This document shows positions 18,290-36,244 of a stretch of DNA of 64,000 nt, piece after piece. The notes under the pieces are model-generated. The model made no database searches. It worked only from the letters and a program-made list of their open reading frames with translations, and was not told where the DNA came from. How positions within the stretch are numbered: position 1 is the first letter of the stretch; each line of letters starts with the position of its first letter. The translations under genes were made by a program, and so were the position numbers. Location: contig NC_008228.1 in NCBI RefSeq assembly GCF_000014225.1, forward strand, positions 1,240,001 to 1,304,000. The letters run 5' to 3'. The DNA comes from Paraglaciecola sp. T6c. Its GTDB lineage: Bacteria; Pseudomonadota; Gammaproteobacteria; Enterobacterales; Alteromonadaceae.

Positions 18290-18323
18290 CTTTAATAAAA
18301 ATGTCACAGACCTAACGAATAAT
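18290..18323 (+). promoter_or_regulatory. Candidate Pho box and -10 upstream of phoB
   Basis: CTTTAAT-AAAA-ATGTCAC (18290-18307) fits the PhoB consensus CTGTCAT-AWAW-CTGTCAY at 5/7 and 6/7 in its half-sites. Exactly 10 bp downstream lies AATAAT (18318-18323), a 5/6 match to a -10 element. This suggests that phoB activates its own promoter. Confidence 0.6.
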
Positions 18324-18354
18324 TGCGGACTTTGTCATGAACAGGAAAATGAAA

Positions 18355-19044
18355 ATGGCCAAACGAGTATTACTGGTTGAAGATGAAGCGCCGATCAGGG
18401 AAATGTTAAAATTTGTCTTAGAGCAATCTGGCTATGAAACGATTGAGGCAGAAGATTTTGATGTCGCCTTGGAAAAGGTCGTTGAGCCATACCCGGACCT
18501 TATTTTGTTGGACTGGATGTTGCCAGGTGGCAGCGGTGTACAACTCGCGAAGCGTTTAAAGCAACATGAATTTACCCGTGATATTCCCATTATAATGGTA
18601 ACGGCCCGGGGCGAAGAAGAAGATAAAGTGCGTGGGCTTGATTCAGGTGCTGATGATTACGTGACAAAACCATTCTCTCCCAAGGAATTGGTTGCCCGAA
18701 TAAAAGCGGTTATTCGTCGCGTTACGCCTACATCTAGTGATGAACTTATTGAATTCAATGGTTTAAAACTCGATCCTGTTTCGCACCGTGCGACCGCCAA
18801 TGATGAGCCGCTTGATATGGGCCCGACTGAATTCAAATTACTGCATTTCTTTATGTCGCACTCCGAGCGGGTTTATAGCCGTGAGCAATTACTGGATAAC
18901 GTTTGGGGTACAAATGTATACGTGGAAGACCGTACTGTAGATGTACACATTCGTCGCTTGCGCAAAGCGATATCACGCTTTGGGCATGACAGCATGATTC
19001 AAACCGTTCGCGGCTCAGGCTACCGCTTTTCAGTAAAAGTGTAA
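18355..19044 (+). CDS. phoB: Phosphate regulon response regulator PhoB
   Basis: PhoB is the OmpR-type transcription factor that activates phosphate-starvation genes. The receiver domain has the acidic pocket VEDE, the phospho-acceptor D53 in [13 protein letters not shown] and the lysine in [10 protein letters not shown]. The winged-helix domain ends in [19 protein letters not shown] and [10 protein letters not shown]. The frame opens at ATG 18337. I chose ATG 18355 because [17 protein letters not shown] aligns with the usual PhoB start and an AGGA site (18343-18346) is well placed. A Pho box precedes it and phoR follows after 61 bp. Confidence 0.95.
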
Positions 19045-19105: not shown

Positions 19106-20416
19106 ATGTATTACCCTTTCTCATGGCTTAGAAGCCTAGGCCGTTTAGCGGCCTACTTTTTGGTGGTTATCTTACTTGGCTGGTATTTCTCAGAGCCAAG
19201 CTTAGCAGTCGCTATTGGTGCGTTACTGCTCTTGGCGAGCCATTACTGGAATATATATCGACTAAACCATTGGTTGTGGCAGAGTAAAAAAATTACGCCT
19301 CCCAGAGTCAATGGCGTGTGGGAGCATATATACGACGGTATCTACACACTGCAAAGGCGAAACCGCGCTAAACGCAAAGAACTAGGGTTATTAGTTAAAC
19401 GCTTCCGAGAAGGGTCCGAAGCGCTGCCTGATGCCGCCGTCGTGGTGGATGCAAACGCAGCGATTATTTGGTGTAACCGATTAGCTAGAATTGAGTTAGG
19501 GCTACGCTGGCCTGACGATGCAGGTCGTCGAATTTACAATTTGGTGCGCCATCCACAATTTGTCGAGTTTTATCACAACAAAGATTATGAAAAGCCGATA
19601 GAAGTGCCGTCTCCGGTAAACGATCAGCGTATTCTTGAATATCGCATTATGCCTTACGGCGATGAACATTTACTGCTTTTGATTAGGGACGTTACCAAGC
19701 TCACCCAAATAGAGAAAATGCGCAAAGATTTTGTCGCTAATGTGTCTCACGAGCTACGAACACCTTTAACGGTGATCAATGGTTATTTAGAGACTCTGCC
19801 AGGGGCGACTAATATCCCAGAGGCCTTTTTGGCAAAAGCGTTTGAAGAAATGCGCTCTCAGTCCACGCGCATGCAGTGCTTGATCGAGGAGCTATTAGTG
19901 CTATCTAGAATCGAAGCCAGTAGTGAGCGCTCTACGGAAAACATTGTCGATGTGCCGCAAATTCTCAATACGATCAAGATTGAAGCCGATACCCTCAATG
20001 GCGCAAAGCAGCATACGATCACAATGGACGTTGACCAAGGTCTGAAAGTCTACGGTGTCGAAACTGAATTACGCAGTGCGTTTTCCAATTTATTATTTAA
20101 TGCCATTCACTACACCCAAGAAGGCGGCAAAATTCACGTGCAATGGTCGTTAGTGGATGGCCAAGCAACGTATTTGGTCACTGACAACGGTTATGGGATT
20201 GAGGCCAAACACTTAGGTCGCCTAACTGAGCGATTCTATCGAGTCGATAAAGCGCGCTCGCGTAAAACAGGTGGCTCGGGGTTAGGTTTATCTATTGTTA
20301 AACATGTGCTCAATCATCATAACTCTCGCTTACGTATCAAAAGCAAAGTCGGAGAGGGCAGTGAGTTCTCATTTGCGTTTTCTCACGAGTTATCGGTGAA
20401 ACAGTCTACGTCTTAG
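19106..20416 (+). CDS. phoR: Phosphate regulon sensor histidine kinase PhoR
   Basis: PhoR phosphorylates PhoB under phosphate limitation. It has 436 residues, with two membrane segments within the first 50 residues and almost no periplasmic loop. A PAS domain spans about 100-200. The HisKA histidine H215 lies in VANVSHELRTPLTVI, and the ATPase boxes are LLFNAIHYTQEGG, VTDNGYGIE and GGSGLGLSIVKHV. It forms an operon with phoB. The pst transporter and phoU genes that normally signal to PhoR are not in this window. Confidence 0.96.
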   Translation: MYYPFSWLRSLGRLAAYFLVVILLGWYFSEPSLAVAIGALLLLASHYWNIYRLNHWLWQSKKITPPRVNGVWEHIYDGIYTLQRRNRAKRKELGLLVKRFREGSEALPDAAVVVDANAAIIWCNRLARIELGLRWPDDAGRRIYNLVRHPQFVEFYHNKDYEKPIEVPSPVNDQRILEYRIMPYGDEHLLLLIRDVTKLTQIEKMRKDFVANVSHELRTPLTVINGYLETLPGATNIPEAFLAKAFEEMRSQSTRMQCLIEELLVLSRIEASSERSTENIVDVPQILNTIKIEADTLNGAKQHTITMDVDQGLKVYGVETELRSAFSNLLFNAIHYTQEGGKIHVQWSLVDGQATYLVTDNGYGIEAKHLGRLTERFYRVDKARSRKTGGSGLGLSIVKHVLNHHNSRLRIKSKVGEGSEFSFAFSHELSVKQSTS

Positions 20417-20530: not shown

Positions 20531-20559
20531 GTGACACTTTTATTAAACTTTTCTGACAG
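20531..20559 (-). promoter_or_regulatory. Candidate triple Pho repeat, minus orientation
   Basis: Read on the minus strand: CTGTCAG-AAAA-GTTTAAT-AAAA-GTGTCAC, three heptamers in exact 11-bp phase. No -10 hexamer follows on that strand, so it may be an upstream binding site supporting the plus-strand box at 20567. Confidence 0.5.
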
Positions 20560-20566
20560 TTTTTAT

Positions 20567-20600
20567 ATGTAACAAAAATGTCACCGAGCTTCGGTAATCT
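20567..20600 (+). promoter_or_regulatory. Candidate Pho box and -10 upstream of the lipoprotein gene
   Basis: ATGTAAC-AAAA-ATGTCAC (20567-20584) matches the PhoB consensus well in its second half-site. TAATCT (20595-20600) follows after exactly 10 bp as a weak -10. It lies about 70 bp upstream of the lipoprotein ATG. Confidence 0.6.
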
Positions 20601-20652: not shown

Positions 20653-22254
20653 ATGGAACTTAAGAATTTTTTCAACGCGTCTGCAGTAGCGACTGCTCTA
20701 ATACTTGCTGGTTGTGGCGGAGATATAAAAGTGACTCCGACAGTCATCGATAATAGCGTTGATAATAGCGTAACCAACCCGACTACAGGTGGTGGCGATA
20801 GCACAACTAACGTTTGTGCCTCTTACGAGAATGATAGCGGCGAGACTGTTCAAGGTACGTATGACGGCCAAGATTGTTCTTACTCAACCACGTTCGTTAG
20901 CGCAAGTAACCCTCTTACAACAAACGTGACGCTTGATGATTTGAGCAATGATGGTGTGCATTATTTCCTAGGCTCATTGGTGGTTGGTGAAGGTTGTAAT
21001 ACCGACGGCGGAACGTGCACTATCGAAACTGACGGCCCCACCCTGACTGTAGAAGCAGGTGCAACAGTTGCTTTTAACCAGTCTACTTCTTTCTTATTAG
21101 TGAATCGTGGTGCGAATATTGAAGCTGAAGGAACCCTAGCTGACCCAATCACATTTACTTCAGTGAATGCGTTTACACGTCTTGATTCAGTCGGTAATGG
21201 TGCTCAGTACGGTGATTGGGGCGGCATGATGATCGACGGTTTCGGTATTACTGACCAATGTACCGATGCTCAGCGTGGTGCAAATACCTGTAGCGCAGAG
21301 AGCGAAGGCGTAACCAGTTATTACGGTGGTAGCGACAACGCTGACGATAGCGGTACGCTTAAATTCGTTAAAATTCATTATGCAGGCGGTTTACCAGCAG
21401 GCCAAGAAGCCGGAAACGATTTGAACTCGCTCAGCTTGTTTGCTGTTGGTTCAGGGACTGAAATTGACTATATCGATATATACCAAGGCTTCGATGACGG
21501 TATTGAATTATTCGGCGGTGCCGTTGACCTTAAGCACATCGTTATTACCGATACTCAAGATGACAGCTTAGACATTGATGCAGGTTGGCAGGGGCGTGCG
21601 CAGTACGTTCTTATCAAGCAAGGTACAGTGGTTAATGCAAATGGCGTGACCGTGAACATGGGTAACGGCGGTTTCGAGTCTGATGGGGTTAAAGGAACGT
21701 CTTCAGCTGAAGCGCCTGCGTCAGCGCCTGTGATTGCTAATGTAACCGTATTGACCACTGATGGCTTGTCTATTCGTGATGACGATGAGTCAATCGCCAT
21801 GAAGTTAGACGATATGATTTCAGCTACTTGGTACAACACATTATTGGTTAAGCCAGTTGCTACGCAAACCTGGTGTATTAATTACAGTGGTGACGCCGCT
21901 GAAGTTATTGTTAACGGCTCAGCGTCTATCCATAACTCAGTAGCAGCCTGTGCTCAATTAGCTAATGCTGGCAACGAAACCGTTACCTTTGGTAGTGATT
22001 CAACTACGGTTCAAGAATGGTTCGAAGCGAATGACAGTGAAGTCGTTGGTGGCAATGCTGACGTACTTGCTGCAAATGGCTTTGCAACGTTAACGACTGG
22101 CACAGATATTACTATTTCAGCATTTGATGCCTCTACACTAGATGCATTTTTTGAGTCAACTGACTACATAGGTGCGGTATCTGACACTGACACTTCTTCT
22201 GATTGGTACAACTGGGCAAACGATGCGTTTACCAACGCAGCTGCTGACGAGTAA
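20653..22254 (+). CDS. Large secreted lipoprotein next to a TonB-dependent receptor, candidate Pho-regulated
   Basis: This 533-residue lipoprotein has a lipobox (LILAGCGGD, Cys about residue 22), then a Thr/Asn/Ser-rich linker. The body is repetitive and Asp/Gly rich and looks like a beta-helix (for example LTVEAGATVAF, FDDGIELFGGAVDL, DTQDDSLDIDAGW). It contains several cysteines. Similar lipoproteins occur beside TonB-dependent receptors in marine bacteria, but I know of no proven function. The Pho box upstream, phoBR just before and the receptor just after suggest a surface role in capturing a phosphorus source. A hairpin separates it from the receptor gene. Confidence 0.7.
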   Translation: MELKNFFNASAVATALILAGCGGDIKVTPTVIDNSVDNSVTNPTTGGGDSTTNVCASYENDSGETVQGTYDGQDCSYSTTFVSASNPLTTNVTLDDLSNDGVHYFLGSLVVGEGCNTDGGTCTIETDGPTLTVEAGATVAFNQSTSFLLVNRGANIEAEGTLADPITFTSVNAFTRLDSVGNGAQYGDWGGMMIDGFGITDQCTDAQRGANTCSAESEGVTSYYGGSDNADDSGTLKFVKIHYAGGLPAGQEAGNDLNSLSLFAVGSGTEIDYIDIYQGFDDGIELFGGAVDLKHIVITDTQDDSLDIDAGWQGRAQYVLIKQGTVVNANGVTVNMGNGGFESDGVKGTSSAEAPASAPVIANVTVLTTDGLSIRDDDESIAMKLDDMISATWYNTLLVKPVATQTWCINYSGDAAEVIVNGSASIHNSVAACAQLANAGNETVTFGSDSTTVQEWFEANDSEVVGGNADVLAANGFATLTTGTDITISAFDASTLDAFFESTDYIGAVSDTDTSSDWYNWANDAFTNAAADE

Positions 22255-22321: not shown

Positions 22322-24988
22322 GTGAGCAATCAATACAAACTTAAAAAAGTCGCCTACTCGGTAGGACTCGGGCTTTTGGTGAGTGCAGTAAGCGCAGTCG
22401 CGCAAGAAAGCCAGGTAATGGAAGAAGTTGTAGCAACGGGTTCTCGACTACAGGGAACCGCTGCTGCCGTTATCGAAGAGCGTAAAAATCAAGCCTTCGT
22501 TGCGGATATATTAGGCTCTGAGCAAATTTCACGTACTGGCGACAGTGATGCTGCGTCGGCACTGCGCCGGGTAACAGGCCTCACGCTGGTCGATGGCAAA
22601 TTTATCTATGTGCGTGGTCTTGGTCAGCGATATTCAAGTGCACGTTTAAACGGTGCCAGCATTCCCAGCCCTGATTTAACCCGAAACGTCATACCGCTAG
22701 ATATCTTTCCTGCCAACGTGATTGAAAGTCTATCTGTACAAAAAGCTTATTCGCCCAATATGCCAGCAGCATTCGGTGGCGGTAACGTTGATATTCGAAC
22801 AAAAGCCATCCCGACAGAATTTGTATCGGGCATTCAAGTCGGTATTGAGGCCAACAGTAATAACTCCGATGGGTATACCTATGATCGGAACGAGCAGGGG
22901 ATCCCGCAAACACTCACAGATGCCATCCCTTATTATCGTGGTGACTTTAGCCTAGCGAATATTATCAACAAAGATAATTTGGTCACAGGTGACACATCTG
23001 CAGCGGATCAAGCTCGAGTGTTAAATAGAACGTTGGCGAAATCACTGCCTCGCGACTTAGCACTGATAGATGAGTCGTTAGACCCTAACTATTCTGCTCA
23101 AGCGTTCATTGGCAATAGTTTTGATGAAGATTTTTTCGATGGAAAAATTGGATTCCTAGCGTCGGTTGCATACGACAACAAATGGACATATTCCGACCGC
23201 ACCAGTGCGGTGACAAGTGCAACCCCTATCGATAATTGTTCTAGCCAGTTGGTGACAGCAGAAGACGTACAAAACTCCTGTTTTGATACCGTTGCGTCAT
23301 CAGAAATGACGACTGAAGAAGAGCGTTTGAACGGCTTAGTCAGCGTGGGTTACAAATTAGACACCCATAGCCTGACCTACACCAAGATTTACATCGAAGA
23401 TAATGAAGATGAATCGCAAATCTCTATTTCACAGAATCCGAGTCAAAACATTACTATCGCCGCTGATAATGAAGCAGACCGCACTCATAGTTTTAATTTC
23501 GAAGAGCGCACGTTAGATGTTGACCAATTTCGCGGTCAGCATACGTTCTTAGATTACATGGGCGTTGGCGTTGATTGGCAGTACACCGAATCAAGCGCTG
23601 AAACAAACAACCCATTGAATGTGGCCTATGAATTCACTGACACCTACGACAACGGCGCTTACACTGGCTCGTTCATTGATGGTGCCCAAGGTCGAGCTAA
23701 CTATCAGTTCGTTGACATGGAAGACAACATGAAATCTTGGGGAGGAAACGTCACGCTTCCTCTTACCTTCAAGAATTTCGAAGTGGAGTTGAAAGGCGGT
23801 TGGGACTTCGTAGACAGAGCGCGTTTGTATACCACATCTAGCTTTTTCCTCGATAACACCAATTCATCAATCGTTGTGAATGACAATGAGTCAGATATCT
23901 TGTCGTTAAGCAGCTATTTGACCGACGAATTCATCGACACCAATATGTTGATTAACTTCAATGAGCCTATCGCACCAGAAGCGGATGACTATTTAGCGGC
24001 GCAAAAAATTGATGCCGGTTATGCGGCTTTCGATGTGTTCTATAAAGGTATTTGGCGCATAAGTGGTGGTTTGCGCTATGAATCATTCAAACAAGTGTCT
24101 TTATCGTCTTCGAGCTTAATTTTTACCAAAGAAGATTCTGATAACTACTACAGCGAAGAGGATATTCTTAACGGTACCGTTAACGATGATGATTTTTATC
24201 CAGCCTTGAGTTTGACCTACGTGGGTGGCGAAGATTACCAGCTGCGCTTCGGATACGGAGAAACGGTAGTACGCCCTGATTTAAGAGAGGTTGTTCCAGT
24301 AGGTTACAACGACCCGTTAACGGATATCCGTACTACGGGCAGCACCACGTTGAGCTCAACCACGCTGAAAAACTTCGATTTGCGTTACGAGTTGTACTTT
24401 GATGACGGCGATAACTTAGCTATTTCAGGTTTCTACAAAGACATTGCTAACCCAATTGAAACCGTGTTGAACGTAGGTGATTCAAGTTACACCGCTAGTT
24501 TTACGAACGGTGAGACCGCGGAAGTATACGGTGTCGAAGCTGAATGGTTATATGATTTGAGTTTTGTATCAGATGGCTTTTTTACCTCTGGTAATATTAC
24601 CTTGAGTGATTCAGAAGTGCAGATTGATGCTGCTTCAGCAGGTAACTTAACCAATACAGAAAAACGTATGACAGGTCATTCTCAATATGTTGTGAACATG
24701 CAACTTAGCTATGACTCTGCGAACGGCAACCACAGTGGCTCTTTGGTGTATAACGCCTTTGGTGAGCGTATTCTCGCATCGGGTATTAATGGTCGTGACG
24801 ACTCATTTGAGCAACCCTTTCACTCGTTAGATGCGACGTATTCTTACTACCCAGATTTTAACACTACCGTTAAATTAACGGTTAAAAATCTGTTGGGTGA
24901 AGACCAAGAAGTGACACAAAGTGGCCTTTCAGTTAGAACTCGCTCTATCGGCACAACGGTTAAGTTGAGCTATAAGTACGATTTCTAA
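22322..24988 (+). CDS. TonB-dependent outer-membrane receptor, candidate Pho-regulated
   Basis: This 888-residue outer-membrane transporter is driven by TonB. A signal peptide ends near AVAQES, a short TonB-box-like segment EEVVATGSR follows, and then the plug (ALRRVTGLTLVDGKFIYVRG, FGGGNVDIRTKAIP). The rest is a beta-barrel ending in the aromatic residue F (LSYKYDF), as required for barrel assembly. It follows the lipoprotein gene by 67 bp and is probably its partner, with phoBR upstream. The substrate is not visible in the sequence; the context favours a phosphorus compound. A strong terminator follows. Confidence 0.92.
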   Translation: MSNQYKLKKVAYSVGLGLLVSAVSAVAQESQVMEEVVATGSRLQGTAAAVIEERKNQAFVADILGSEQISRTGDSDAASALRRVTGLTLVDGKFIYVRGLGQRYSSARLNGASIPSPDLTRNVIPLDIFPANVIESLSVQKAYSPNMPAAFGGGNVDIRTKAIPTEFVSGIQVGIEANSNNSDGYTYDRNEQGIPQTLTDAIPYYRGDFSLANIINKDNLVTGDTSAADQARVLNRTLAKSLPRDLALIDESLDPNYSAQAFIGNSFDEDFFDGKIGFLASVAYDNKWTYSDRTSAVTSATPIDNCSSQLVTAEDVQNSCFDTVASSEMTTEEERLNGLVSVGYKLDTHSLTYTKIYIEDNEDESQISISQNPSQNITIAADNEADRTHSFNFEERTLDVDQFRGQHTFLDYMGVGVDWQYTESSAETNNPLNVAYEFTDTYDNGAYTGSFIDGAQGRANYQFVDMEDNMKSWGGNVTLPLTFKNFEVELKGGWDFVDRARLYTTSSFFLDNTNSSIVVNDNESDILSLSSYLTDEFIDTNMLINFNEPIAPEADDYLAAQKIDAGYAAFDVFYKGIWRISGGLRYESFKQVSLSSSSLIFTKEDSDNYYSEEDILNGTVNDDDFYPALSLTYVGGEDYQLRFGYGETVVRPDLREVVPVGYNDPLTDIRTTGSTTLSSTTLKNFDLRYELYFDDGDNLAISGFYKDIANPIETVLNVGDSSYTASFTNGETAEVYGVEAEWLYDLSFVSDGFFTSGNITLSDSEVQIDAASAGNLTNTEKRMTGHSQYVVNMQLSYDSANGNHSGSLVYNAFGERILASGINGRDDSFEQPFHSLDATYSYYPDFNTTVKLTVKNLLGEDQEVTQSGLSVRTRSIGTTVKLSYKYDF

Positions 24989-25042: not shown

Positions 25043-25750
25043 TCACTGAATTAGCTCGTATTGTTTTACGGCGGTGTCGGTTTGCAAACCAAAATGTCCT
25101 AATGCGTAATTGAACGTAGCGTCTTCATTCACGATACGACTACTATGCACACCGCCGACAGTGCAGCCACCGGTTGAGCATACAATTTGGTCAATATAGC
25201 TCTTAATCGAATATACTTTTGAAGCTAGCGGCACATTATAAATGCTGTCTAAAAATGGGCTGCCTACGGATAATCCCGCTGAGCCACAAGTAGAGCTCCA
25301 CACATTAAACGGGTAATAACCGCAGCTTTTAAGGCCTAAAAATGCCCCGGCAATCCCCACAAAGGTATCTACCCGGTTGGCAATGGCAAGTTTATCAATT
25401 TGCTGAGCGGCTAATGTTGCTCCCATCGAATGACCGATCACATCAATCTTGCCTGTACAGGATGAGGCTAGAGCACTTTGTATTGCTTGGCGCACGGGCG
25501 TTTCTTCACTGCCGCTATGGTTGTTGCAGGCGGCGCAGTTCTTCGAACCCCAATCCGGTTTATAGATTTCGCTACTACTGTAGCCATTAGCTAGCAGATG
25601 ATCATAGGTGTTATCCCAACTGGCAGGTGTGGCCGTATTGCCATGGACTAATACCACTGCGTCTTTACAGGCAAATGCATTGAACGGCAGAGCCAAGCAC
25701 ATTAACAGCGCCAATATTCGTATTCTGTAACATTCTTTTATTATATTCAT
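25043..25750 (-). CDS. Secreted lipase-like alpha/beta hydrolase
   Basis: This 235-residue exported hydrolase has a signal peptide (LLMCLALPFNAFA), then AVVLVHGNTATPASW, the oxyanion-loop HG motif of bacterial lipases. The nucleophile serine lies in DVIGHSMGATLA, and a histidine near the C terminus (ALGHFGLQ) could complete the triad. Several cysteine pairs suggest disulphides, as expected outside the cytoplasm. It resembles class 2 lipases of the Bacillus LipA type. The natural ester is unknown. It is divergent from the iron permease gene. Confidence 0.85.
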   Translation of the reverse strand: MNIIKECYRIRILALLMCLALPFNAFACKDAVVLVHGNTATPASWDNTYDHLLANGYSSSEIYKPDWGSKNCAACNNHSGSEETPVRQAIQSALASSCTGKIDVIGHSMGATLAAQQIDKLAIANRVDTFVGIAGAFLGLKSCGYYPFNVWSSTCGSAGLSVGSPFLDSIYNVPLASKVYSIKSYIDQIVCSTGGCTVGGVHSSRIVNEDATFNYALGHFGLQTDTAVKQYELIQ

Positions 25751-25882
25751 GATGTCCTCTTTAGTTGTTGTTTTCTAAGTGACAGCAATGAATATAGGGC
25801 GCGCGCACTGAAACAGACATAGTACTTTAGCACTGCGGCAATAAGCTGAAAGCGTTGCTTCGATGGCCGGTTAAAAGTAAAA

Positions 25883-25897
25883 TAATAATTATTCTCA
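25883..25897. promoter_or_regulatory. Candidate Fur box upstream of the FTR1 gene
   Basis: On the minus strand the 7-1-7 motif reads TGAGAAT-A-ATTATTA against the consensus TGATAAT-N-ATTATCA, a 6/7 and 6/7 match. It fits the iron-permease function of the gene downstream and suggests repression when iron is plentiful. Confidence 0.6.
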
Positions 25898-26019
25898 TTT
25901 GTTTTGGGTATGCCGTATAGATGTCGCTATACGCATTCACACACTTAAACGTTAAGGTTTTAGTTTTGTACTCTTCTGCTATTTGTTTTAAACGCTTTTT
26001 GGTTTCATTCGTTCATCTT

Positions 26020-27972
26020 ATGCAAAGTCGTCGTCAACTCTTTGCTGAGCTGGCGTTCAGTTTCTGCATCATGCTGAGCCTTACTCAATCGGCGCCGAGT
26101 TTAGCTCAATCAGCTTCTCAACTAGATGCGGTTAAAGAGAGTCGTCAGATTTTACAAATGGCGGAATACATAGGTGTTGATTACTCAGAAGCCGTGGTCG
26201 ATGGTGAAGTATCAAGCGAAGACGAATTTGCTGAAATGCAACAATTCGCCAAGCTAATTTTGCAAAAGGCGGAGGCATTACAAACTGCCGCGCTAAGTGA
26301 CTTTGATTTACAGAAAACGTCGGTCATCGCCAATGCCCAAGCACTGCAGCAGGCTATTTTAGCTAAGTCAGCAATGGGGAAAATTCAAAGCCTGACATTA
26401 CAAATTCGCCAAGAGTTATTAGCCATGTCGCCCGCGCTAAAATTGCCAGCGCAACTGTTGCCTCAAGCAGAAATAGATAAACTCTTTGTTGATAACTGCT
26501 CTGCATGCCATGGCCCAGCCGGTCAAGGCGACGGTCCACTAGCGAAGTCGTTTAGCCCTCAGCCAACAGACTTTACTGAAAAAGAGCGCGCACAAAATCG
26601 TTCTTTGTTGGGGCTTTACGACGCTATCAGCGCAGGGCTGGACGATACCGCAATGCGCGCGTTTACCGAGCTCAACGATCAGCAGCGTTGGTCTTTAGCG
26701 TTTTATGCTGGCAGTTTGGCCTTTAAAGGTGCGGCGGGAAATGATTTAGATGTTAAACCGACGCTGCCCCTGCAACGCTGGATAAACAATAATCCAGTAC
26801 AAATTGCAGCGCAAAATGATGCGATTAGCCAGGTGCAAGTTGAGCAGTGGCGCGCCTCGCCAGAGATATTTTTTGGACAAGCCAATACGCCTATCGCCAC
26901 AGCAAAAAACAACCTGATCGCCGCTGTCGATGCTTACAACGAAGGCAATTTTGCGCAAGCACAAACACTCGCCGTCAGTGCCTATTTAGATGGTTTTGAA
27001 CTGATCGAAAATAACCTCGACGCCAGAGATAGTGGTTTACGAAAATCGGTAGAAAAGCAGTTGTTGAATTTCCGTAATGTGCTGAGCTCACCCAATAATG
27101 AGCAACAGGTAAGCGCTGAATCACAACAAATATTGCAGCAGCTTGAACAAGTCGATAACACACTGAACTCAGCGACGTTATCGAACAACGCCATGTTTTC
27201 GGCTTCGTTGATCATTTTGTTGCGTGAAGGGTTAGAAGCACTGCTTATCGTGTTAGCGCTCATCACCGTACTGATAAAAACCCAGCGCCAAGACGCCATC
27301 CGCTACGTACATTTTGGCTGGGCATCAGCACTTATTGCTGGTGGCGTCACTTGGTGGGCGGCTGAAAACCTGATCACGATCAGTGGCGCATCAAGAGAAC
27401 TCATGGAAGGCGGCGCGGCCTTATTAGCCGCCGGCATTTTGTTTTACGTCGGTTATTGGATGCATAGCAAAACCCAAGCATCAGTGTGGCAGAAATACAT
27501 CAATGACAACGTCGAACGTCATTTAAGCACCGGCACCTTATGGGGCTTAACTGGGTTGGCGTTTATTTCAGTTTATCGAGAGGTCTTCGAAACAATTTTG
27601 TTTTATCAGTCACTGTTAACTCAATCGGTAGGGGATGGCAGCCAAGTAAGCTTTGTGTGGTACGGACTCGTCGCTGCGGTTGCCATACTCGCACTGATCA
27701 CCTGGCTGATGCTTAAGTACACCGTCAAGTTACCTATCGCCCGCTTTTTCTCTATGAGCGCTTACTTTATGTTGATATTGGCCTTTATTTTGGCGGGCAA
27801 GGGGATTTCTGCACTGCAAGAAGCTGCGATCATTGGCATCAATGCATTTCCACTAGATGTTTCGATAAGCTGGTTGGGTATTTCTGCCACATGGCAGGGG
27901 GTACTAGTGCAAGGTGTCATACTTGCGTTGTTCATCGTCATGATGACGCGCAAAGATACAGCGTCAGCATAA
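26020..27972 (+). CDS. Cytochrome c / FTR1 iron permease fusion
   Basis: This fused iron-uptake protein has about 650 residues. An exported N-terminal half carries a class I cytochrome c domain with haem motif C160-S-A-C-H164 and a later Met ligand (TAMRAF). The C-terminal half has about seven membrane segments with two REXXE iron-binding motifs, R402-EGLE and R520-EVFE, typical of FTR1/EfeU permeases. The frame opens at ATG 25921. I prefer ATG 26020 because it gives a clean signal peptide (FCIMLSLTQSAPSLAQS) and leaves room for the promoter; neither start has a good ribosome site. A Fur-like box lies upstream. Confidence 0.88.
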   Translation: MQSRRQLFAELAFSFCIMLSLTQSAPSLAQSASQLDAVKESRQILQMAEYIGVDYSEAVVDGEVSSEDEFAEMQQFAKLILQKAEALQTAALSDFDLQKTSVIANAQALQQAILAKSAMGKIQSLTLQIRQELLAMSPALKLPAQLLPQAEIDKLFVDNCSACHGPAGQGDGPLAKSFSPQPTDFTEKERAQNRSLLGLYDAISAGLDDTAMRAFTELNDQQRWSLAFYAGSLAFKGAAGNDLDVKPTLPLQRWINNNPVQIAAQNDAISQVQVEQWRASPEIFFGQANTPIATAKNNLIAAVDAYNEGNFAQAQTLAVSAYLDGFELIENNLDARDSGLRKSVEKQLLNFRNVLSSPNNEQQVSAESQQILQQLEQVDNTLNSATLSNNAMFSASLIILLREGLEALLIVLALITVLIKTQRQDAIRYVHFGWASALIAGGVTWWAAENLITISGASRELMEGGAALLAAGILFYVGYWMHSKTQASVWQKYINDNVERHLSTGTLWGLTGLAFISVYREVFETILFYQSLLTQSVGDGSQVSFVWYGLVAAVAILALITWLMLKYTVKLPIARFFSMSAYFMLILAFILAGKGISALQEAAIIGINAFPLDVSISWLGISATWQGVLVQGVILALFIVMMTRKDTASA

Positions 27973-27991
27973 GGGCCAATATCGAGCGCAT

Positions 27992-28021
27992 AAAAAAGGC
28001 AGATGATTATCTGCCTTTTTT
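27992..28021 (+). terminator. Bidirectional terminator after FTR1 gene
   Basis: AAAAAAGGCAGAT-GATT-ATCTGCCTTTTTT, a perfect stem with T runs on both strands between converging genes. Confidence 0.88.
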
Positions 28022-28065
28022 GTGAACGGGCCTAAGTATTTAGACCACCGTTTATTGTCGCTTGC

Positions 28066-30399
28066 TTAGTAGAAGCTCACCTTCGCTTCGATACCAAAGA
28101 TGCGCGGCTGATTCACAATACCCGTTAGGTTATTGAAATCCACCGCACCTTTTACGTTCTCTTCATCGGTAATGTTGCGACCGAATAAGGCTACGGTATA
28201 GTTATGCTCGAAGTTTTCATAACCGATGCGTAAACCGCCTTCTACGTTGCCGTCTGTTTGAAACTCAACAGATTCGTACAAGAATAGGTTCGTGTCCCCT
28301 TGGTACGCCCAATCTGTAAACGCAAAGAATTCACCATCATTACCCAAAGGTACCGCATAACGTGCTGTGAACGTGAAGATCGTCTCTGGCGCTTGCGGGA
28401 AAGGGTTTCCATCAATAACAGCGTTAAAGCCATTCGGACGAGGGTCAAGTACGGTACAGTTACCTGTTGAGCCAAATGCTTCATTTGTGCCACAAGGCAG
28501 TAACGTTAATGAATCATCTTTAATTTCTGTTTTGTTGTAGCTATAACCTGCGGTAAGGGTTAAGTAATCGTTCGCTACGTATTGTGCGTCGATTTCAAAA
28601 CCGTAACCCACACCTTTATCAGCGTTTACCAATGCTACGTTATTTGCACCACCACCGATTGCAGAGAACTGCATATCGTCGATTTGGTAATAGAAAGTGG
28701 CAGCGTTTAAGCGCAAGGTGTTTTCCAACAAATCAGACTTAAAACCAAACTCGATTGAGTTAATGGTTTCTGCGTCAGCCACTGAAGGTGCACCTTCAAA
28801 AGCCACATCACGTCCTTGAATCGACTGAGCTCTAAAGCCATTAGCAAAACGAGCAAACACCGAGGTGTCATCGCTTACTTTGTAGTTAGCGCTTAGCTCC
28901 CAGCTGATTTGACCATCATCCACATCAATGTCGTCGTAGTCTTGTACACTGGCATCACCAGTGATTAATGCGAAGCCGTCGACGTTTTGCTCTCCAACAC
29001 GAAGTGATTTTTTGTCGTGGGTATAACGCACACCACCGGTCACATTCAAACGCTCGTTCAATTCGTAAGTTGTTTGCCCAAAAACAGCCCAAGTGGTGTT
29101 TTCATGGAATACTGTGGTCGCGCCAAAGTAGCCATCGATGCTCGTCACGTTGAAAGACGAGTCATAGTAAAACGCACCGGTTTGCCAGCTAAGGGCATCG
29201 TCAGTTTCGCTGGCCAAGCGAATTTCTTGCGTAAATTGCTCTAAGTCGTCTAAGTTATCTTGGGTGACAGCACTAAAGCCTATGGCGCCAGGAAACGTTA
29301 ACACGTCTTCAAAACCAGAGTTGAAATTGGCAGAAGTTAGGCCATCAGGTACCGGCGTGGATAAATCATTGGTATACACACCGCCGTCAATATCACCAAG
29401 GCTTGAGCCTTCTGCTTCTTCATAGGCAGTAATTGACGTGAACGACATTTCATCTAAGCCAAACTCTAACTTTAAAGATGCGCCATAGTTTTCGTATTCT
29501 TGCGGGTTATTGTCTGTGCCATTACCGTCGATGTCGCCATCGTAATAGACAGTGTCGCGATCGAAATTCTGATTTAAATCGTTACTGCCTTTAGTAAATA
29601 CGTTAGCGCGAAAGACCGATGCGGTGCCATCTAACTCACGGCCGTGCACGTTTAACAACGCTGAAAAGTCTTCGCTTGGGGTAAATAACAGCTGACCGCG
29701 CCATGCTTTTTCGTCAAAGCCGCCAATCGCGTCTTTCTCGCCAGTAAAGCCATTGTCTATCCAGTCATCCCGGTCTTGGGATAACACAGAGAAGCGTCCT
29801 GATAAATCTTCAGCAAGTCCGCCGCCAACAGCTGCTTCAAAATTGACTGTTCCTAAATTACCCACACCTAACTTGGCGTAAGCATCGAAATCTTCTGTGG
29901 GTTTAACTGAGTCAAACTTGACTATACCAGCAGTGGTGTTGCGCCCAAACAAGGTACCTTGTGGGCCACGAATAACCTCAACTTGCTCAACATCAAACAA
30001 TGGGAAGCTTTTCAAAATAACGTTCTCTTTGACCACGTCATCCATCACGATGGAAACTGGCTGAGAGGCTGCTAAGTCAAAATCTGTGTTACCTAAACCG
30101 CGGATATAAAAACGCGGCGCTACACGGCCATTGGATGATTCGGCGTATAAGCCAGGAACGCGCACTGCTAGGGCGATAATATCGTCACCACCTGAAAATA
30201 TGCTTTCAAATCGCTCTCCGTTTAAGGTAGCAATTGAGATTGGCACTTCTTGAATACTTTGCGTACGTTTTTGCGCTGTAACCGTGATCTTTTCTAACCC
30301 TTTATCTTTTGCTGCAGGTACTTCCTGTGCATGAAGAGTATGGCTAAATAGAGCACCTTGGATACAGACGGCTAATGCTGCTTTGTGAAAATTGGTCAT
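28066..30399 (-). CDS. TonB-dependent outer-membrane receptor
   Basis: This 777-residue receptor has a signal peptide ending FSHTLHAQE and a TonB-box region LEKITVTAQKR. The plug has VPGLYAESSNG, RFYIRGLGNTDF and VEVIRGPQGTLFGRNTTAG, and the barrel ends in the terminal aromatic pair FY. The plug motifs are of the general ferric-siderophore/vitamin type found in many Alteromonas receptors, which also import sugars and other compounds, so the substrate cannot be read from it. It is divergent from the TonB operon with a 525-bp gap. The nearby motor probably energises it. Confidence 0.92.
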   Translation of the reverse strand: MTNFHKAALAVCIQGALFSHTLHAQEVPAAKDKGLEKITVTAQKRTQSIQEVPISIATLNGERFESIFSGGDDIIALAVRVPGLYAESSNGRVAPRFYIRGLGNTDFDLAASQPVSIVMDDVVKENVILKSFPLFDVEQVEVIRGPQGTLFGRNTTAGIVKFDSVKPTEDFDAYAKLGVGNLGTVNFEAAVGGGLAEDLSGRFSVLSQDRDDWIDNGFTGEKDAIGGFDEKAWRGQLLFTPSEDFSALLNVHGRELDGTASVFRANVFTKGSNDLNQNFDRDTVYYDGDIDGNGTDNNPQEYENYGASLKLEFGLDEMSFTSITAYEEAEGSSLGDIDGGVYTNDLSTPVPDGLTSANFNSGFEDVLTFPGAIGFSAVTQDNLDDLEQFTQEIRLASETDDALSWQTGAFYYDSSFNVTSIDGYFGATTVFHENTTWAVFGQTTYELNERLNVTGGVRYTHDKKSLRVGEQNVDGFALITGDASVQDYDDIDVDDGQISWELSANYKVSDDTSVFARFANGFRAQSIQGRDVAFEGAPSVADAETINSIEFGFKSDLLENTLRLNAATFYYQIDDMQFSAIGGGANNVALVNADKGVGYGFEIDAQYVANDYLTLTAGYSYNKTEIKDDSLTLLPCGTNEAFGSTGNCTVLDPRPNGFNAVIDGNPFPQAPETIFTFTARYAVPLGNDGEFFAFTDWAYQGDTNLFLYESVEFQTDGNVEGGLRIGYENFEHNYTVALFGRNITDEENVKGAVDFNNLTGIVNQPRIFGIEAKVSFY

Positions 30400-30924
30400 T
30401 GTGTCACCGCTAGTAAATGTGTGGTTATAGTCAGTATGTCACTCTGCGATTTTGTCATCGCGTTACTCCCATCGCCCATGTTGCTAATTAGCTTCGTTAA
30501 TTGCTTTAACATCACACGTTCATTTATGAAGCGTTGTCCGGATATAAAACAAGAACAAATAAGTAGGCTGAGCGAAGGGGGCGTATTGTGCCTAAATGTC
30601 CTTTTAAAGTCTCGTTAATTGTAGCAGTTAAGGGATCACTTAAATGTCACATTTGGCTGACAATCAAAACGATAACATACAGCTTCGAGGCTGAGTGAGC
30701 GCAAAAAAGAGCCACGTACGCTGAGTATTCAGCGCTTTGCACGCACACATAAACCGCGCCATAACAGGCTGTCATAATACTGAAATATTACTGTCACCTA
30801 TACGTCATATAGCTGTCATAAAAATGCCACGACTAGCCCCTATCCTTGCGCAAATTCTGAATGAAATAGACTGATCCGAGAGGAGCACACTGTTTCACCA
30901 TTTCCTTCAAATAGGGTTTGAGTA
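30400..30924. other. Divergent intergenic region between receptor and TonB operon
   Basis: This 525-bp gap holds the six-repeat Pho array (30769-30830) and its -10 (30841). Isolated TGTCAY-like heptamers at 30401, 30436 and 30452 are not in 11-bp phase. No gene was recognised in it. Confidence 0.6.
30769..30846 (+). promoter_or_regulatory. Tandem Pho box array (six in-phase heptamers) and -10 of the TonB operon
   Basis: Heptamers start every 11 bp: CTGTCAT (30769), CTGAAAT (30780), CTGTCAC (30791), ACGTCAT (30802), CTGTCAT (30813) and ATGCCAC (30824), with AT-rich 4-bp spacers. This equals three tandem Pho boxes. TATCCT (30841-30846) follows after exactly 10 bp as a -10. PhoB normally replaces the -35 in this geometry. 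Confidence 0.8.
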
Positions 30925-31695
30925 ATGAAGTCTACCACTATGTTATCAGCCAGCTTACTCAGTGTAAGTTTGCTTTTATCTGCATCTGGCAATGCCCAGG
31001 AAGATGCATACCTGAAGCCAGCTGTTGAAAAAGCGACGAAGATCAACAACTCAGCAGCGAGTTCACAGCAGAAAATCAACAAGCTCAATGATCAGATTGA
31101 TAATAAGTTGCAGCAATTCAAAGCCATTAATAAAGAGACTGAAGGCCTAGAGGTATACAACACTCAGTTGCGCAAGCAAATTGAGAACCAAGCACAGGAA
31201 ATGGCCGACTTAAACGCTGCAATTGATGATGTGAGTGTTATTGAGCGTCAAATTACGCCGTTGATGATGCGCATGATTGATGGGCTCGAGCAGTTCATTG
31301 CTCTTGATGTGCCTTTTTTAGCCCAAGAGCGAGCAACACGTATTGCCGGCTTAAAAAGTATGATGGACAAAGCTGATGTGGCGCCCTCTGAGAAATTTCG
31401 CCGCGTGATGGAAGCCTACCAAGTTGAAATGGACTACGGACGCACATTAGAAGCTTACGCCGGTTTACAAAATATTGATGGGCAAGAGCGTAACGTTGAT
31501 TTTCTGCGCGTTGGCCGTACCGCTTTAATATATCAAACGCGTGACGCAAGCATGCAAGGTATGTGGAATGCGCAAACTCGTCAGTGGGATGCCTTACCGT
31601 CTAGTTACCGCACCCAAGTTACTAAAGGCCTGCGTATGGCTAAAAAACAAATGGCACCAGACCTACTGATGTTGCCTGTTGCGATCACAGATTAA
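30925..31695 (+). CDS. DUF3450 periplasmic protein of TonB2-type operon
   Basis: This 256-residue exported protein (signal peptide ending SASGNAQE) is largely coiled coil from about residue 30 to 110, rich in Gln, Asn and Lys (QKINKLNDQIDNKLQQF). The C-terminal half matches DUF3450 (RMIDGLEQFIALDVPFL, SEKFRRVMEAYQVEMDYGR). Genes of this family head TonB2-type clusters in Vibrio and Shewanella, and the protein probably works with the MotA/TolQ-like partner. It is the first gene after the Pho array, with GAGAGGAG well upstream. The next gene starts 7 bp after its stop. Confidence 0.88.
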   Translation: MKSTTMLSASLLSVSLLLSASGNAQEDAYLKPAVEKATKINNSAASSQQKINKLNDQIDNKLQQFKAINKETEGLEVYNTQLRKQIENQAQEMADLNAAIDDVSVIERQITPLMMRMIDGLEQFIALDVPFLAQERATRIAGLKSMMDKADVAPSEKFRRVMEAYQVEMDYGRTLEAYAGLQNIDGQERNVDFLRVGRTALIYQTRDASMQGMWNAQTRQWDALPSSYRTQVTKGLRMAKKQMAPDLLMLPVAITD

Positions 31696-33123: not shown

Positions 33124-33645
33124 ATGTTGGAATTTTTCGAAGCAATACGTGATTTTACGGAAACAGGTGGTCAAGTTCTCTTGGTCATCGGGTTTTTAAT
33201 ATTCGTCATGTGGTTGCTGATCCTTGAACGAGCGTTGTACGTGTTCATCTGGCATAAAGCCTATAAGAAAGAAACCATTGCCACCTGGAAAGCACGTAAA
33301 GACAGACGCTCATGGAACGCAGAACAAATACGTCAAGCGATGATTTCTCGCGTTAGCCTGCGCTTGGGCGCGGGCATTCCGATTATTCAGGCTCTAGTTG
33401 CCTTGTGCCCTCTATTGGGCTTAATGGGAACGGTAACCGGCATGATAGAAGTGTTTGATGTTATGGCTATTTCTGGTTCAGGTAGTGCGCGCTCGATGGC
33501 CTCTGGTGTATCAAAAGCGACCATTCCTACCATGGCCGGTATGGTCGGTGCGTTATCCGGGGTGTTTGCCTCAACTTGGTTAGCCCGCACCACAAAATCA
33601 GAACGTACGCATTTAGAAGACGCATTGACAATAGAGCGCAAGTAG
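33124..33645 (+). CDS. exbB: ExbB/TolQ proton channel subunit
   Basis: This is an inner-membrane motor subunit of 173 residues with three membrane segments. The conserved channel helix reads LVALCPLLGLMGTVTGMIEVF, followed by GVSKATIPTMAGMVGALSGVF. It is shorter than classical ExbB of E. coli, as is usual in TonB2-type systems. It forms the proton-driven complex with the ExbD encoded 30 bp downstream. Confidence 0.94.
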   Translation: MLEFFEAIRDFTETGGQVLLVIGFLIFVMWLLILERALYVFIWHKAYKKETIATWKARKDRRSWNAEQIRQAMISRVSLRLGAGIPIIQALVALCPLLGLMGTVTGMIEVFDVMAISGSGSARSMASGVSKATIPTMAGMVGALSGVFASTWLARTTKSERTHLEDALTIERK

Positions 33646-33675: not shown

Positions 33676-34083
33676 ATGAAACAACATTTTCAAAATTTGA
33701 TGGACGAAGAAGAAGCAGCAATCGACATGACACCGATGCTCGATGTGGTATTTATCATGTTGATTTTCTTTATCGTCACCGCGTCTTTTGTTAAAGAATC
33801 GGGTATTGATGTGAATCGTCCTGAAGCGGCGACAGCGGTCAAGAAAGACCGCGCCAATATTCTGATAGCCATCAGTGACAAAGGCGAAATATGGATCAAC
33901 AAACGTAAAATTGATGTGCGTGCAGTTCAAGCGAATATTGAGCGTCTGCATGCGGAAAACCCACAAGGTACTGTGGTGATCCAAGCGGATAAAAAATCGA
34001 CTACCGAAACCTTAATTAAGGTCATGGATGCCTCTCGTGCCGCCGGTATTACCGATGTTTCGATTGCAGCGCAAGAGCCCTAG
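33676..34083 (+). CDS. exbD: ExbD/TolR biopolymer transport protein
   Basis: This 135-residue subunit has one membrane helix carrying the essential aspartate (D23 in MTPMLDVVFIMLIFFIV) and a periplasmic domain ending in STTETLIKVMDASRAAGI. It passes proton-motive energy to TonB. It lies in operon with exbB and tonB; the tonB ATG is 3 bp past its stop. Confidence 0.95.
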   Translation: MKQHFQNLMDEEEAAIDMTPMLDVVFIMLIFFIVTASFVKESGIDVNRPEAATAVKKDRANILIAISDKGEIWINKRKIDVRAVQANIERLHAENPQGTVVIQADKKSTTETLIKVMDASRAAGITDVSIAAQEP

Positions 34084-34086
34084 ATC

Positions 34087-34695
34087 ATGCTTAGATATCT
34101 CATAGCGATAGCATTGTCAGCCATTGTGACGCTGAGCCTGTTTTTCGTGATGCAATCACTGATCAAAAGTGGTGGTAGCGCATTAACTGAGCCTGCAAAG
34201 GGCAGTGTGCTGGATTTCGTGCGGGTGAAAAAAGAAGAATCCGCCCAGAAGAAAGATCGTAAACCCAAGAAGCCGCCTAAGCCAGAAGCGCCACCTCCAG
34301 CGATGGAGCAACCGCAGATGGATTCGCCTACGCCGAATGCCGAGGGCAATGGAATGGACTTTGGAGCCGACGTTAACGAAGGTTTATCGTTAGATGGCGG
34401 CTTAGCACTTGAATCGGGTGACGGGGAATATCTGCCGATTGTGAAAGTGGCACCGGTTTATCCTCGACGTGCGTTATCTCGTGGTATCGAAGGCTACGTT
34501 ATTGTTGAATTTACAGTGTCGAAGCAGGGTTCGGTGAAAAATCCGTTTGTGGTAGATGCCCAGCCAGCAGATCTGTTTAATCAAGCGGCAATTGATGCAG
34601 CACTTAAATTTAAATACAAACCTCGGGTAGTCAACGGTGAACCTGCTGAAGTGGCTGGTGTGCAAAACCGTATTTCTTTCCAGATTGATGGTTAA
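34087..34695 (+). CDS. tonB: TonB energy transducer
   Basis: This 202-residue protein has one N-terminal membrane anchor (residues 1-25) and a short Lys/Pro-rich span (RKPKKPPKPEAPPPA). The C-terminal TonB domain carries YPRRALSRGIEGYVIVEF, QAAIDAALKFKYKPR and AGVQNRISFQI. It contacts receptor TonB boxes in the outer membrane. The short proline span is typical of TonB2-class proteins. It is coupled to exbD (3-bp gap) and followed by the TPR gene. Confidence 0.95.
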   Translation: MLRYLIAIALSAIVTLSLFFVMQSLIKSGGSALTEPAKGSVLDFVRVKKEESAQKKDRKPKKPPKPEAPPPAMEQPQMDSPTPNAEGNGMDFGADVNEGLSLDGGLALESGDGEYLPIVKVAPVYPRRALSRGIEGYVIVEFTVSKQGSVKNPFVVDAQPADLFNQAAIDAALKFKYKPRVVNGEPAEVAGVQNRISFQIDG

Positions 34696-34706
34696 TTGGG
34701 GGCTTG

Positions 34707-36050
34707 ATGAAATTAAACAATAAAAAAAGCAGTAACCTCTCACGCCAGGTTTTAGGTTTGGCATTATGTGCAGTGATTGGTCTGGGCATTAATGTCACGC
34801 CGGTGGCAATGAAAAATGCTCAGGCACAAGAAGACAGTCAACGTGAAACCCGAAGAACGCCAGCCCTTAGAGTGAAAGTGTACGACCAACTTTCCCGAGC
34901 GCAAAAATTGGCAGATGAAGGTAAAACTGACGAAGCCCTTGAAGCCTTGGATAACGTGAAAGGTAAAGCGAGTTCAATGAACAGCTATGAGCTGGCCATG
35001 ATGTATAACTTCTATGGTTTTATTTACTACAACGTTGAGCGCTTTGATGAAGCGATTGCCTCGTTTGAAACCGTGGTAGAGCAACAGCCAATCCCAGAGT
35101 CATTTGAACTAAGCACCTTATTTAGCTTGGCGCAACTGCACATGATGCGCGGCAATTTTGACAAAACAGTGGCCTTTTTAGAGCGCTGGGAAACGTTAAA
35201 TGCCTCGGTTAATCCAAACTCTGAAATACCCGCTAAAAACTACGTGTTAAAAGCGCAGGCTATGTACCAGCAAAAGTCTTACGATAAAGCCGCGAGTTAT
35301 ATCGAAAAAGCGATTGAGATTGTTGAAGCACAAGACGATATTCCAGATGAAAATTGGTATGTATTGCAACGTGCGGTGTATTACGAACTAAAGCAATCTG
35401 AAGACGTGAAAGACGTGCTGCTGAAATTGGTCAGGCATTTTGATAAGCCCAAATATTGGGTGCAACTTGCTGGCATGTACGGAGAACTAGGCGAAGAGCA
35501 AAAGCAATTAGCCATTCTTGAAACCGCGTATCAGCAAGGCTACATCGAAAGCGGCTCTGATATGTTTAACCTCGCGCAGCTTTATTACTACCACCAAATG
35601 CCGTTTAAAGGCGCTCGTTTAATTGAAAAGGGCCTTGAGAGCGGCGTGCTTGATAAGAACCTTAAAAATTTGAAGTTCCTTTCACAATGTTGGGTGCTCG
35701 CTAAAGAAAACGAAGAGGCGGTACCTGTGATGAAGGCTGCCGCTGATTTGTCTGATGATGGCGAACTAGACGCGCAGTTAGGGCAAATTTATCTCAACAT
35801 GGAGAAGTGGCAACAAGCTATTTCAGCGTCAGAGGCGGCGTTAGGAAAAGGCGGTTTACGGAACGAAGGCACGGTGCATTTAGTTAAAGGCATGGCATTT
35901 TTTAACGTAGGGCAATACAACGAAGCATTGAATGAATTGGCCGAAGCCGAGAAATTTAATAGCAGTAAGGGTATGGCGCAGCAATGGTCAAAGTTTGTAG
36001 AAACTGAAAAAGCCAGCGCTGACCGACTCACTGTTTCACTTTCTCAGTAA
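34707..36050 (+). CDS. Periplasmic TPR protein of the TonB operon
   Basis: This 447-residue exported protein has a signal-like N terminus (VLGLALCAVIGLGINV) and then successive TPR-like helix pairs (for example YNFYGFIYYNVERFDEAIASF, AQLHMMRGNFDKTVAFLE and LGQIYLNMEKWQQAISA). It closes the TonB operon as in Vibrio and Shewanella TonB2 clusters, where its exact job is not settled. A TTG at 34704 precedes the ATG; I use ATG 34707 behind GGGGG at 34697-34701. Confidence 0.88.
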   Translation: MKLNNKKSSNLSRQVLGLALCAVIGLGINVTPVAMKNAQAQEDSQRETRRTPALRVKVYDQLSRAQKLADEGKTDEALEALDNVKGKASSMNSYELAMMYNFYGFIYYNVERFDEAIASFETVVEQQPIPESFELSTLFSLAQLHMMRGNFDKTVAFLERWETLNASVNPNSEIPAKNYVLKAQAMYQQKSYDKAASYIEKAIEIVEAQDDIPDENWYVLQRAVYYELKQSEDVKDVLLKLVRHFDKPKYWVQLAGMYGELGEEQKQLAILETAYQQGYIESGSDMFNLAQLYYYHQMPFKGARLIEKGLESGVLDKNLKNLKFLSQCWVLAKENEEAVPVMKAAADLSDDGELDAQLGQIYLNMEKWQQAISASEAALGKGGLRNEGTVHLVKGMAFFNVGQYNEALNELAEAEKFNSSKGMAQQWSKFVETEKASADRLTVSLSQ

Positions 36051-36148
36051 TGTTGTTTTAAGCTTTGAAATAACAAAGCATTAGGTTTTGCTCAGTATAA
36101 TAAAATCTATAATTCTAGCGTGTCTTTCGCGCTAGCAGAGAACCTCTC

Positions 36149-36192: not shown

Positions 36193-36244
36193 ACGTTTAA
36201 CCTCCCGTGACAAAACTGCCGTTAAAACTCACCCGCACATCTAA

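Follow-up and report, generated by a model that had tools for sequence, protein, structure and literature searches.

A TonB2-type motor operon behind a predicted PhoB-box array, with a candidate lipoprotein–receptor client, in Paraglaciecola sp. T6c and its relatives

The DNA analysed here (the window) comprises 64,000 nucleotides of Paraglaciecola sp. T6c (NC_008228.1, positions 1,240,001 to 1,304,000), in which a six-gene TonB operon, designated operon A, lies behind a phased array of PhoB-type heptamers. The promoter and the operon have the following features, in window coordinates.

30769..30830, plus strand: Pho-box array of six PhoB-type heptamers in 11-bp phase (sequence reading, weight matrix, conservation)
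30841..30846, plus strand: -10 hexamer TATCCT, 10 bp past the last heptamer (read from sequence; the array presumably occupies the place of the -35)
30925..31695, plus strand: ttpB (DUF3450), first gene of operon A (PF11932, 305.9 bits; named after PMC6957404)
31706..33112, plus strand: ttpC, a long protein of the MotA/TolQ/ExbB family (PF01618)
33124..33645, plus strand: exbB (PF01618)
33676..34083, plus strand: exbD (TolR/ExbD models, all under their cut-offs)
34087..34695, plus strand: tonB (TIGR01352, 56 bits against a cut-off of 27.1; PF03544)
34704..36050, plus strand: ttpD, a TPR-like protein and the last gene of the operon (weak matches and position)
36062..36079, plus strand: terminator-like hairpin directly 3' of ttpD (consensus match only)

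The six genes are tightly packed, with intergenic gaps of 10, 11, 30, 3 and 8 bp, and their order, TtpB-TtpC-ExbB-ExbD-TonB-TtpD, is that of a TonB2-type system, ExbD and the TPR protein being placed in it by weak matches or position. The TonB2 and TonB3 systems of Vibrio vulnificus are described with the same gene set (PMC6957404), likewise six genes, with the DUF3450 gene (ttpB) first and a further gene after tonB last. TtpB of operon A is 98% identical to its counterpart in Paraglaciecola mesophila and 90-96% identical to those in three other Paraglaciecola records. The scan that returned the hairpin behind ttpD found 8 terminator-like hairpins in the 64-kb stretch against 6.2 expected by chance.

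Starting at 30769, 30780, 30791, 30802, 30813 and 30824, the heptamers of the array keep an exact 11-bp phase. On re-reading the sequence, we recovered every heptamer and the TATCCT hexamer where the original prediction had placed them; the array is perfect in phase and not in sequence, half of its units being degenerate. Units 1, 3 and 5 match the PhoB consensus, CTGTCAY, in full, whereas units 2 (CTGAAAT), 4 (ACGTCAT) and 6 (ATGCCAC) depart from it. The array thus has the make-up of a Pho box, for which two or more heptamers resembling CTGTCAT, repeated every 11 bp and separated by 4-bp AT-rich spacers, are the minimum, and the -10 hexamer at +10 from the last heptamer stands at the spacing expected of a Pho promoter. 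In E. coli, the pho box usually substitutes for the -35 (PMC4971064). The genome encodes both PhoB and PhoR, and the same heptamers and spacing recur before known Pho genes, namely pstS, DUF47-pit, ppk and an OprO/P-type porin. At the level of sequence, direct control of operon A by PhoB, as originally proposed, is the best reading of these features, and we consider it very probable.

Scoring of the region with a PhoB weight matrix, a check suggested along with the prediction, relied on 22 heptamers with their spacers from eight promoters (pstS from three genomes, DUF47-pit from four and ppk from one). No TonB-operon sequence entered the training; the seed promoters were picked via CTGTCAY patterns, so that the matrix is independent of TonB operons and not of the PhoB consensus. 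The seeds are the clearer promoters, the array being seen in seven of eight pstS promoters and in not all of the 25 DUF47 promoters. By this matrix, the array of operon A is the top score in the window, whether two, three, four or six units are considered. Its six units reach 47.8, compared to -13.8 for the best of 40 random 64-kb Markov-1 sequences, and three units reach 30.0 compared to 11.7 in the same random set; the pair score alone (23.6) stays below the best random pair (25.1) and is thus unremarkable. In pattern searches of the 5.19-Mb single-contig genome, a three-heptamer pattern with at most two mismatches is matched only by the operon A array and the pstS promoter, and with at most three mismatches by 9 sites against 4 for the reversed control, while two-heptamer patterns hardly rise above their reversed controls (90 versus 66; 28 versus 22). 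Random sequence yields matches as good as the two-heptamer ones at 36205 (before ahpC) and at 45959, which were set aside. Elsewhere in the stretches read, matrix sites stand before DUF47-pit, ppk, the OprO/P phosphate porin, a metallophosphoesterase and an acyltransferase, as would be expected of a Pho regulon; the matrix also scores sites before a gene that we take to be acetate kinase-like and before a small protein, and these may be chance or real.

The array distinguishes operon A from the other TonB loci of the genome. Six TonB_C matches were found, and in the stretches scanned only the operon A locus has the array; a matrix scan of four other tonB regions, 12 kb each, gave no comparable array (best triple, 4.7). 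A paralog, B, at 3606000-3616000 of the same chromosome, is by its gene order and ORFs a six-gene TonB operon too, and its promoter shows no Pho box and no clear Fur box. With motor A defined by matches of at least 276 bits, the operon is present in 39 of 48 genomes of the family, comprising 20 of 22 from the same genus and 19 of 26 others (19 further genera). When each promoter was compared to 300 of its own dinucleotide shuffles (p ≤ 0.01), a three-unit array was significant in all 39 motor A promoters, across 20 genera, and a two-unit array in 38 of them, so that the original prediction, which was to fall if the phased repeats were not conserved before orthologous operons, is borne out on this point. 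Among 31 non-orthologous operons tested out of 73 non-A matches (29 from the family, mostly paralog B, and two from the order), none was significant by pairs and two by triples, and none of the 27 related operons tested from other orders of the class (out of 35 matches outside the family) reached p ≤ 0.01. A tree of 89 TtpB sequences, including those of 19 of these 27 outside-family operons, places type A on one side of a single branch (support 98/89), with two of the 31 non-orthologous TtpB (G016b and G039f) closer to A than to B.

Relative to the last called heptamer, TANNNT is at +10 in 26 of the 39 orthologous promoters, at +21 in seven and at neither distance in six; the T6c promoter counts among the +21 class because its sixth heptamer is too weak to be called. 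In a gapless alignment on the last heptamer, six of the seven columns hold 1.1-1.8 bits (whole range 0.6-1.8), compared to means of 0.15 bits in the upstream and 0.32 bits in the downstream flank, and the number of heptamers differs between relatives. Outside the family, nine Pseudoalteromonas promoters each have four phased units (p ≤ 0.004 each), that of Pseudoalteromonas Bsw20308 failing on three units alone (p 0.12), and the Vibrio and Salinivibrio control promoters have no four-unit array. Among 13 loci in named genomes, compared here without p values, Aliikangiella and a partial Alteromonas match are without a convincing array.

About 10 kb upstream of the array end the genes for PhoB and PhoR, and directly downstream of these lies a lipoprotein–receptor pair with a Pho box of its own, the likely partner of the motor, which the original prediction had not included.

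18290..18307, plus strand: Pho box of phoB, CTTTAAT-AAAA-ATGTCAC, with AATAAT at +10
18337..19044, plus strand: phoB (TIGR02154, 365 bits against a cut-off of 296)
19106..20416, plus strand: phoR (TIGR02966, 445 bits, and NF008235, 531 bits, both above cut-off)
20567..20584, plus strand: Pho box of the lipoprotein–receptor pair, ATGTAAC-AAAA-ATGTCAC, with TAATCT at +10 (matrix score of only 7.1, weak)
20653..22254, plus strand: ElpS-like lipoprotein of 533 aa (lipobox LAGC, read by eye)
22322..24988, plus strand: TonB-dependent receptor and likely motor client (PF00593, PF07715)

The Pho box before the lipoprotein gene, with TA...T at +10, is the top-scoring pair in 15 of 22 relatives, three of which (G022, G026 and G027) have uncertain lipoprotein start codons. 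In the receptor, Pfam shows only Plug and barrel, which gives it the look of a transporter. The lipoprotein has no Pfam or NCBIfam match; a sequence search of solved structures returned nothing for it (E up to 1) or for the receptor (E up to 0.01), and its single-sequence AlphaFold model, with a mean pLDDT of 36.6, is too poor for fold assignment, our impression being one of a parallel beta-helix. Reading frames of the lipoprotein family are of two kinds, about 540-590 aa, or about 920-960 aa with two matching stretches; on the Alteromonas macleodii plasmid pBGP9, the gene is 4.1 kb long and a Tn3-like transposase lies about 8 kb before it. In the window, a class 2 lipase, an FTR1-cytochrome c protein and a siderophore-like receptor (25043-30399) separate the receptor of the pair from the motor. 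Among the regions read, only those of the three closest relatives (G006, G007 and G012) share this block next to the motor, and it looks like an insertion, since the pair adjoins the motor in many other relatives.

Motor A and the lipoprotein are both present in 39 of the 48 family genomes, the lipoprotein alone in two (one a fragment), neither in seven and the motor alone in none; the co-occurrence p of 4.9e-7 overstates independence because the genomes are related, and two genomes of the order have the lipoprotein without motor A. In 32 of the 39 genomes, the lipoprotein gene lies within 25 kb of motor A on the same strand (31 upstream, one downstream), and in 19 within 4.5 kb; in the seven unlinked cases, the two are far apart on one contig (three) or on separate contigs (four, some of them drafts). 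Phosphate genes precede the pair in part of the 32 upstream regions read, phoB/phoR orthologs (at least 55%) in ten and pit-ppk-ppx in six, a count in which one region (G019) was read on the wrong side and another (G017) is only 2.1 kb long.

The arrangement is also found on plasmids. On pBGP9 (NZ_OX359244), the genes for PhoB and PhoR, a phosphate-binding protein, an oxygenase, a lipoprotein of the same family, a receptor and the motor stand in a row; as far as the plasmid was read, the motor part comprises DUF3450, two ExbB-family genes, ExbD and TonB, and its promoter scores 21.2, with TATCCT at +10. In Alteromonas and Pseudoalteromonas, each of the 13 plasmid records with the lipoprotein has DUF3450 as well (58-79% identity), and the motor A promoters of ten of the 13 were scored. 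The other eight of the 21 lipoprotein-bearing plasmid records belong to other genera and are absent from the 22 records with TtpB, and records from Salinivibrio, Vibrio, Photobacterium and Aeromonas hold DUF3450 only, at 33-44% identity. Two Pseudoalteromonas records read at length show the reversed order, motor and then lipoprotein–receptor pair, with a weak or absent Pho box before the lipoprotein (p 0.03 in one, 0.19 in the other).

Based on these features, motor A is understood as a starvation-specific relative of the TonB2-type machine, next to a chromosomal paralog free of Pho boxes. To be switched on, it would require that PhoR phosphorylate PhoB upon phosphate starvation; phosphorylated PhoB would occupy the 11-bp repeats side by side, replacing the -35, and recruit sigma-70 polymerase to TATCCT, and ttpB-ttpC-exbB-exbD-tonB-ttpD would be transcribed as a single unit. 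Array units in excess of a minimal pair may serve to adjust the response to the level of PhoB. The main client would be the receptor at 22322-24988 with the ElpS-like lipoprotein, and dedication of the motor to this pair appears likely to us. Pair and motor probably import a phosphorus-containing substrate whose scarcity or size puts it beyond porins, and the surface lipoprotein would pass it to the receptor, like SusD to SusC, or be itself moved by the receptor. The same Pho switch before motor, surface lipoprotein and receptor suggests a phosphorus-scavenging machine.

Alternatively, a PhoB-controlled motor could act as a general booster in phosphate starvation, powering any TonB-dependent receptor, iron receptors included, with no dedicated client. 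One TonB motor can serve several receptors, the genome has six TonB_C matches, and it is a siderophore-like receptor (28066-30399, minus strand) that diverges from operon A, with an FTR1-type protein adjoining. Yet this receptor has no site among the top matrix matches of the window, and it is the lipoprotein–receptor pair, rather than the lipase, FTR1 protein and divergent receptor, that is the frequent neighbour of the motor, that co-occurs with motor A and that stays with it in the two Pseudoalteromonas records despite the reversed order. We therefore regard a booster without dedicated client as rather unlikely.

Two further explanations concern the switch itself. OmpR-family regulators often bind direct repeats of 10-11 bp, and the array could be the target of another member of the family, the operon then answering a different signal; this is set aside as very improbable because the sites are common to canonical Pho genes, the heptamers matching those before pstS, pit, ppk and OprO/P in the same genome, and phoB, which lies close by with phoR, has such a box of its own. 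Scarcely credible is an iron-controlled motor with incidental repeats: in V. vulnificus, tonB2 is iron-responsive and carries a putative Fur box (PMC6957404), but the repeats of operon A are conserved and positioned, and a scan with a simple 19-position Fur consensus gave best matches of 10-13 of 19 in the 39 operon A promoters, no better than shuffled sequence gives (mean 11.1, maximum 14).

Direct PhoB control of motor A, the preferred reading, would set the operon apart from its Vibrio relatives in regulation and not in make-up. Control by Fur and iron is a trait of Vibrio TonB2 and not of the machine itself, and the operon A promoter differs in having a Pho box and no Fur box that stands out; TonB3 is under Lrp and CRP, judging from a reference title cited in PMC6957404. 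The original prediction held a dedicated Pho-controlled TonB motor to be unusual; a Pho-controlled motor has a precedent in P. aeruginosa, PUMA3: as described in PMC4971064, the phdA promoter transcribes pdtB, exbB2D2 and tonB4 (phdA-pdtB-exbB2D2-tonB4) and requires PhoB together with sigma-VreI, so that a phosphate-controlled TonB motor is of a known kind. In both cases, a TonB-ExbBD motor stands behind a pho box; in PUMA3, PhoB binds the box and the motor is transcribed in phosphate starvation, and in operon A both are predicted. The promoter architecture is different, the PUMA3 pho box lying upstream of a -35 (PMC4971064) and the operon A array ending 10 bp before the -10, and no PUMA3-like ECF sigma/anti-sigma genes were found among the proteins scanned or, in a non-systematic reading by eye, among the ORFs listed.

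The pair likewise has analogues. In Caulobacter, TonB-dependent receptors are known to come under PhoB control (PMC11208175), and ElpS (cc0170), a lipoprotein produced in phosphate starvation and having an LAGC lipobox, is encoded beside the TonB-dependent receptor Cc0171 (PMC2996285). The T6c pair resembles it, by description of ElpS, in an LAGC lipoprotein gene adjoining a TonB-dependent receptor gene, here with a Pho box; in Caulobacter, cc0171 is reported to be expressed equally in rich and poor media, and the main text of the source does not mention ExbB (PMC2996285). In Flavobacterium johnsoniae, of the Bacteroidota, the FI and FII lipoproteins, described as modestly homologous to the Caulobacter lipoprotein, are strongly induced by low phosphate and lie beside TonB-dependent transporters (PUS loci), one in a phoBR cluster, and ExbB is again unmentioned in the main text (PMC8115612). 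An alphaproteobacterial relative of the T6c lipoprotein, from Indioceanicola (33.6% identity over 74% of the query), is encoded ahead of a receptor gene and genes for type II secretion, the layout of the Caulobacter elpS (cc0170)-cc0171-gsp arrangement (PMC2996285), with no Pho box upstream (p 0.39). Among the matches listed in the open-access literature, none reports direct Pho control of a TonB2-type operon or a motor-receptor-lipoprotein module, or sets such a motor against a paralog that lacks the control. A TonB2-type motor under direct Pho control beside an uncontrolled paralog, as predicted here, is thus apparently new.

Lastly, TonB motors have been studied mostly via iron, and the present locus offers two paralogous motors of which only one has a phosphate switch and a defined receptor, so that the reason why bacteria keep several TonB systems becomes testable. 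In Caulobacter and Flavobacterium, ElpS-type lipoproteins are prominent among the proteins made at low phosphate, and the locus provides a way into what they do; it also suggests how marine bacteria might scavenge phosphorus. As a tentative extension, on which our confidence falls just short of balanced, phoBR, the ElpS-type surface lipoprotein, the receptor and a private TonB2-type motor could form one self-contained, transferable phosphorus-scavenging machine, in a lineage that, having two outer-membrane energy systems, gave one of them wholly to the phosphate-starvation response. On this reading, motor A might, beyond import, also act in the outward direction and draw the lipoprotein across the outer membrane or onto it.

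Two minor observations relate to other Pho-like sites. At 1491000-1497000 of the same chromosome, the metallophosphoesterase and a two-domain acyltransferase/GNAT protein are each encoded behind a Pho-like array, a combination that resembles membrane-lipid remodelling in phosphate starvation. Within the window, a second phased array (20531-20559, minus strand; three units, score 19.7, first unit CTGTCAG) is located in the interval that separates phoR from the lipoprotein gene; it is directed towards phoR and lies a short way upstream of the Pho box on the plus strand.
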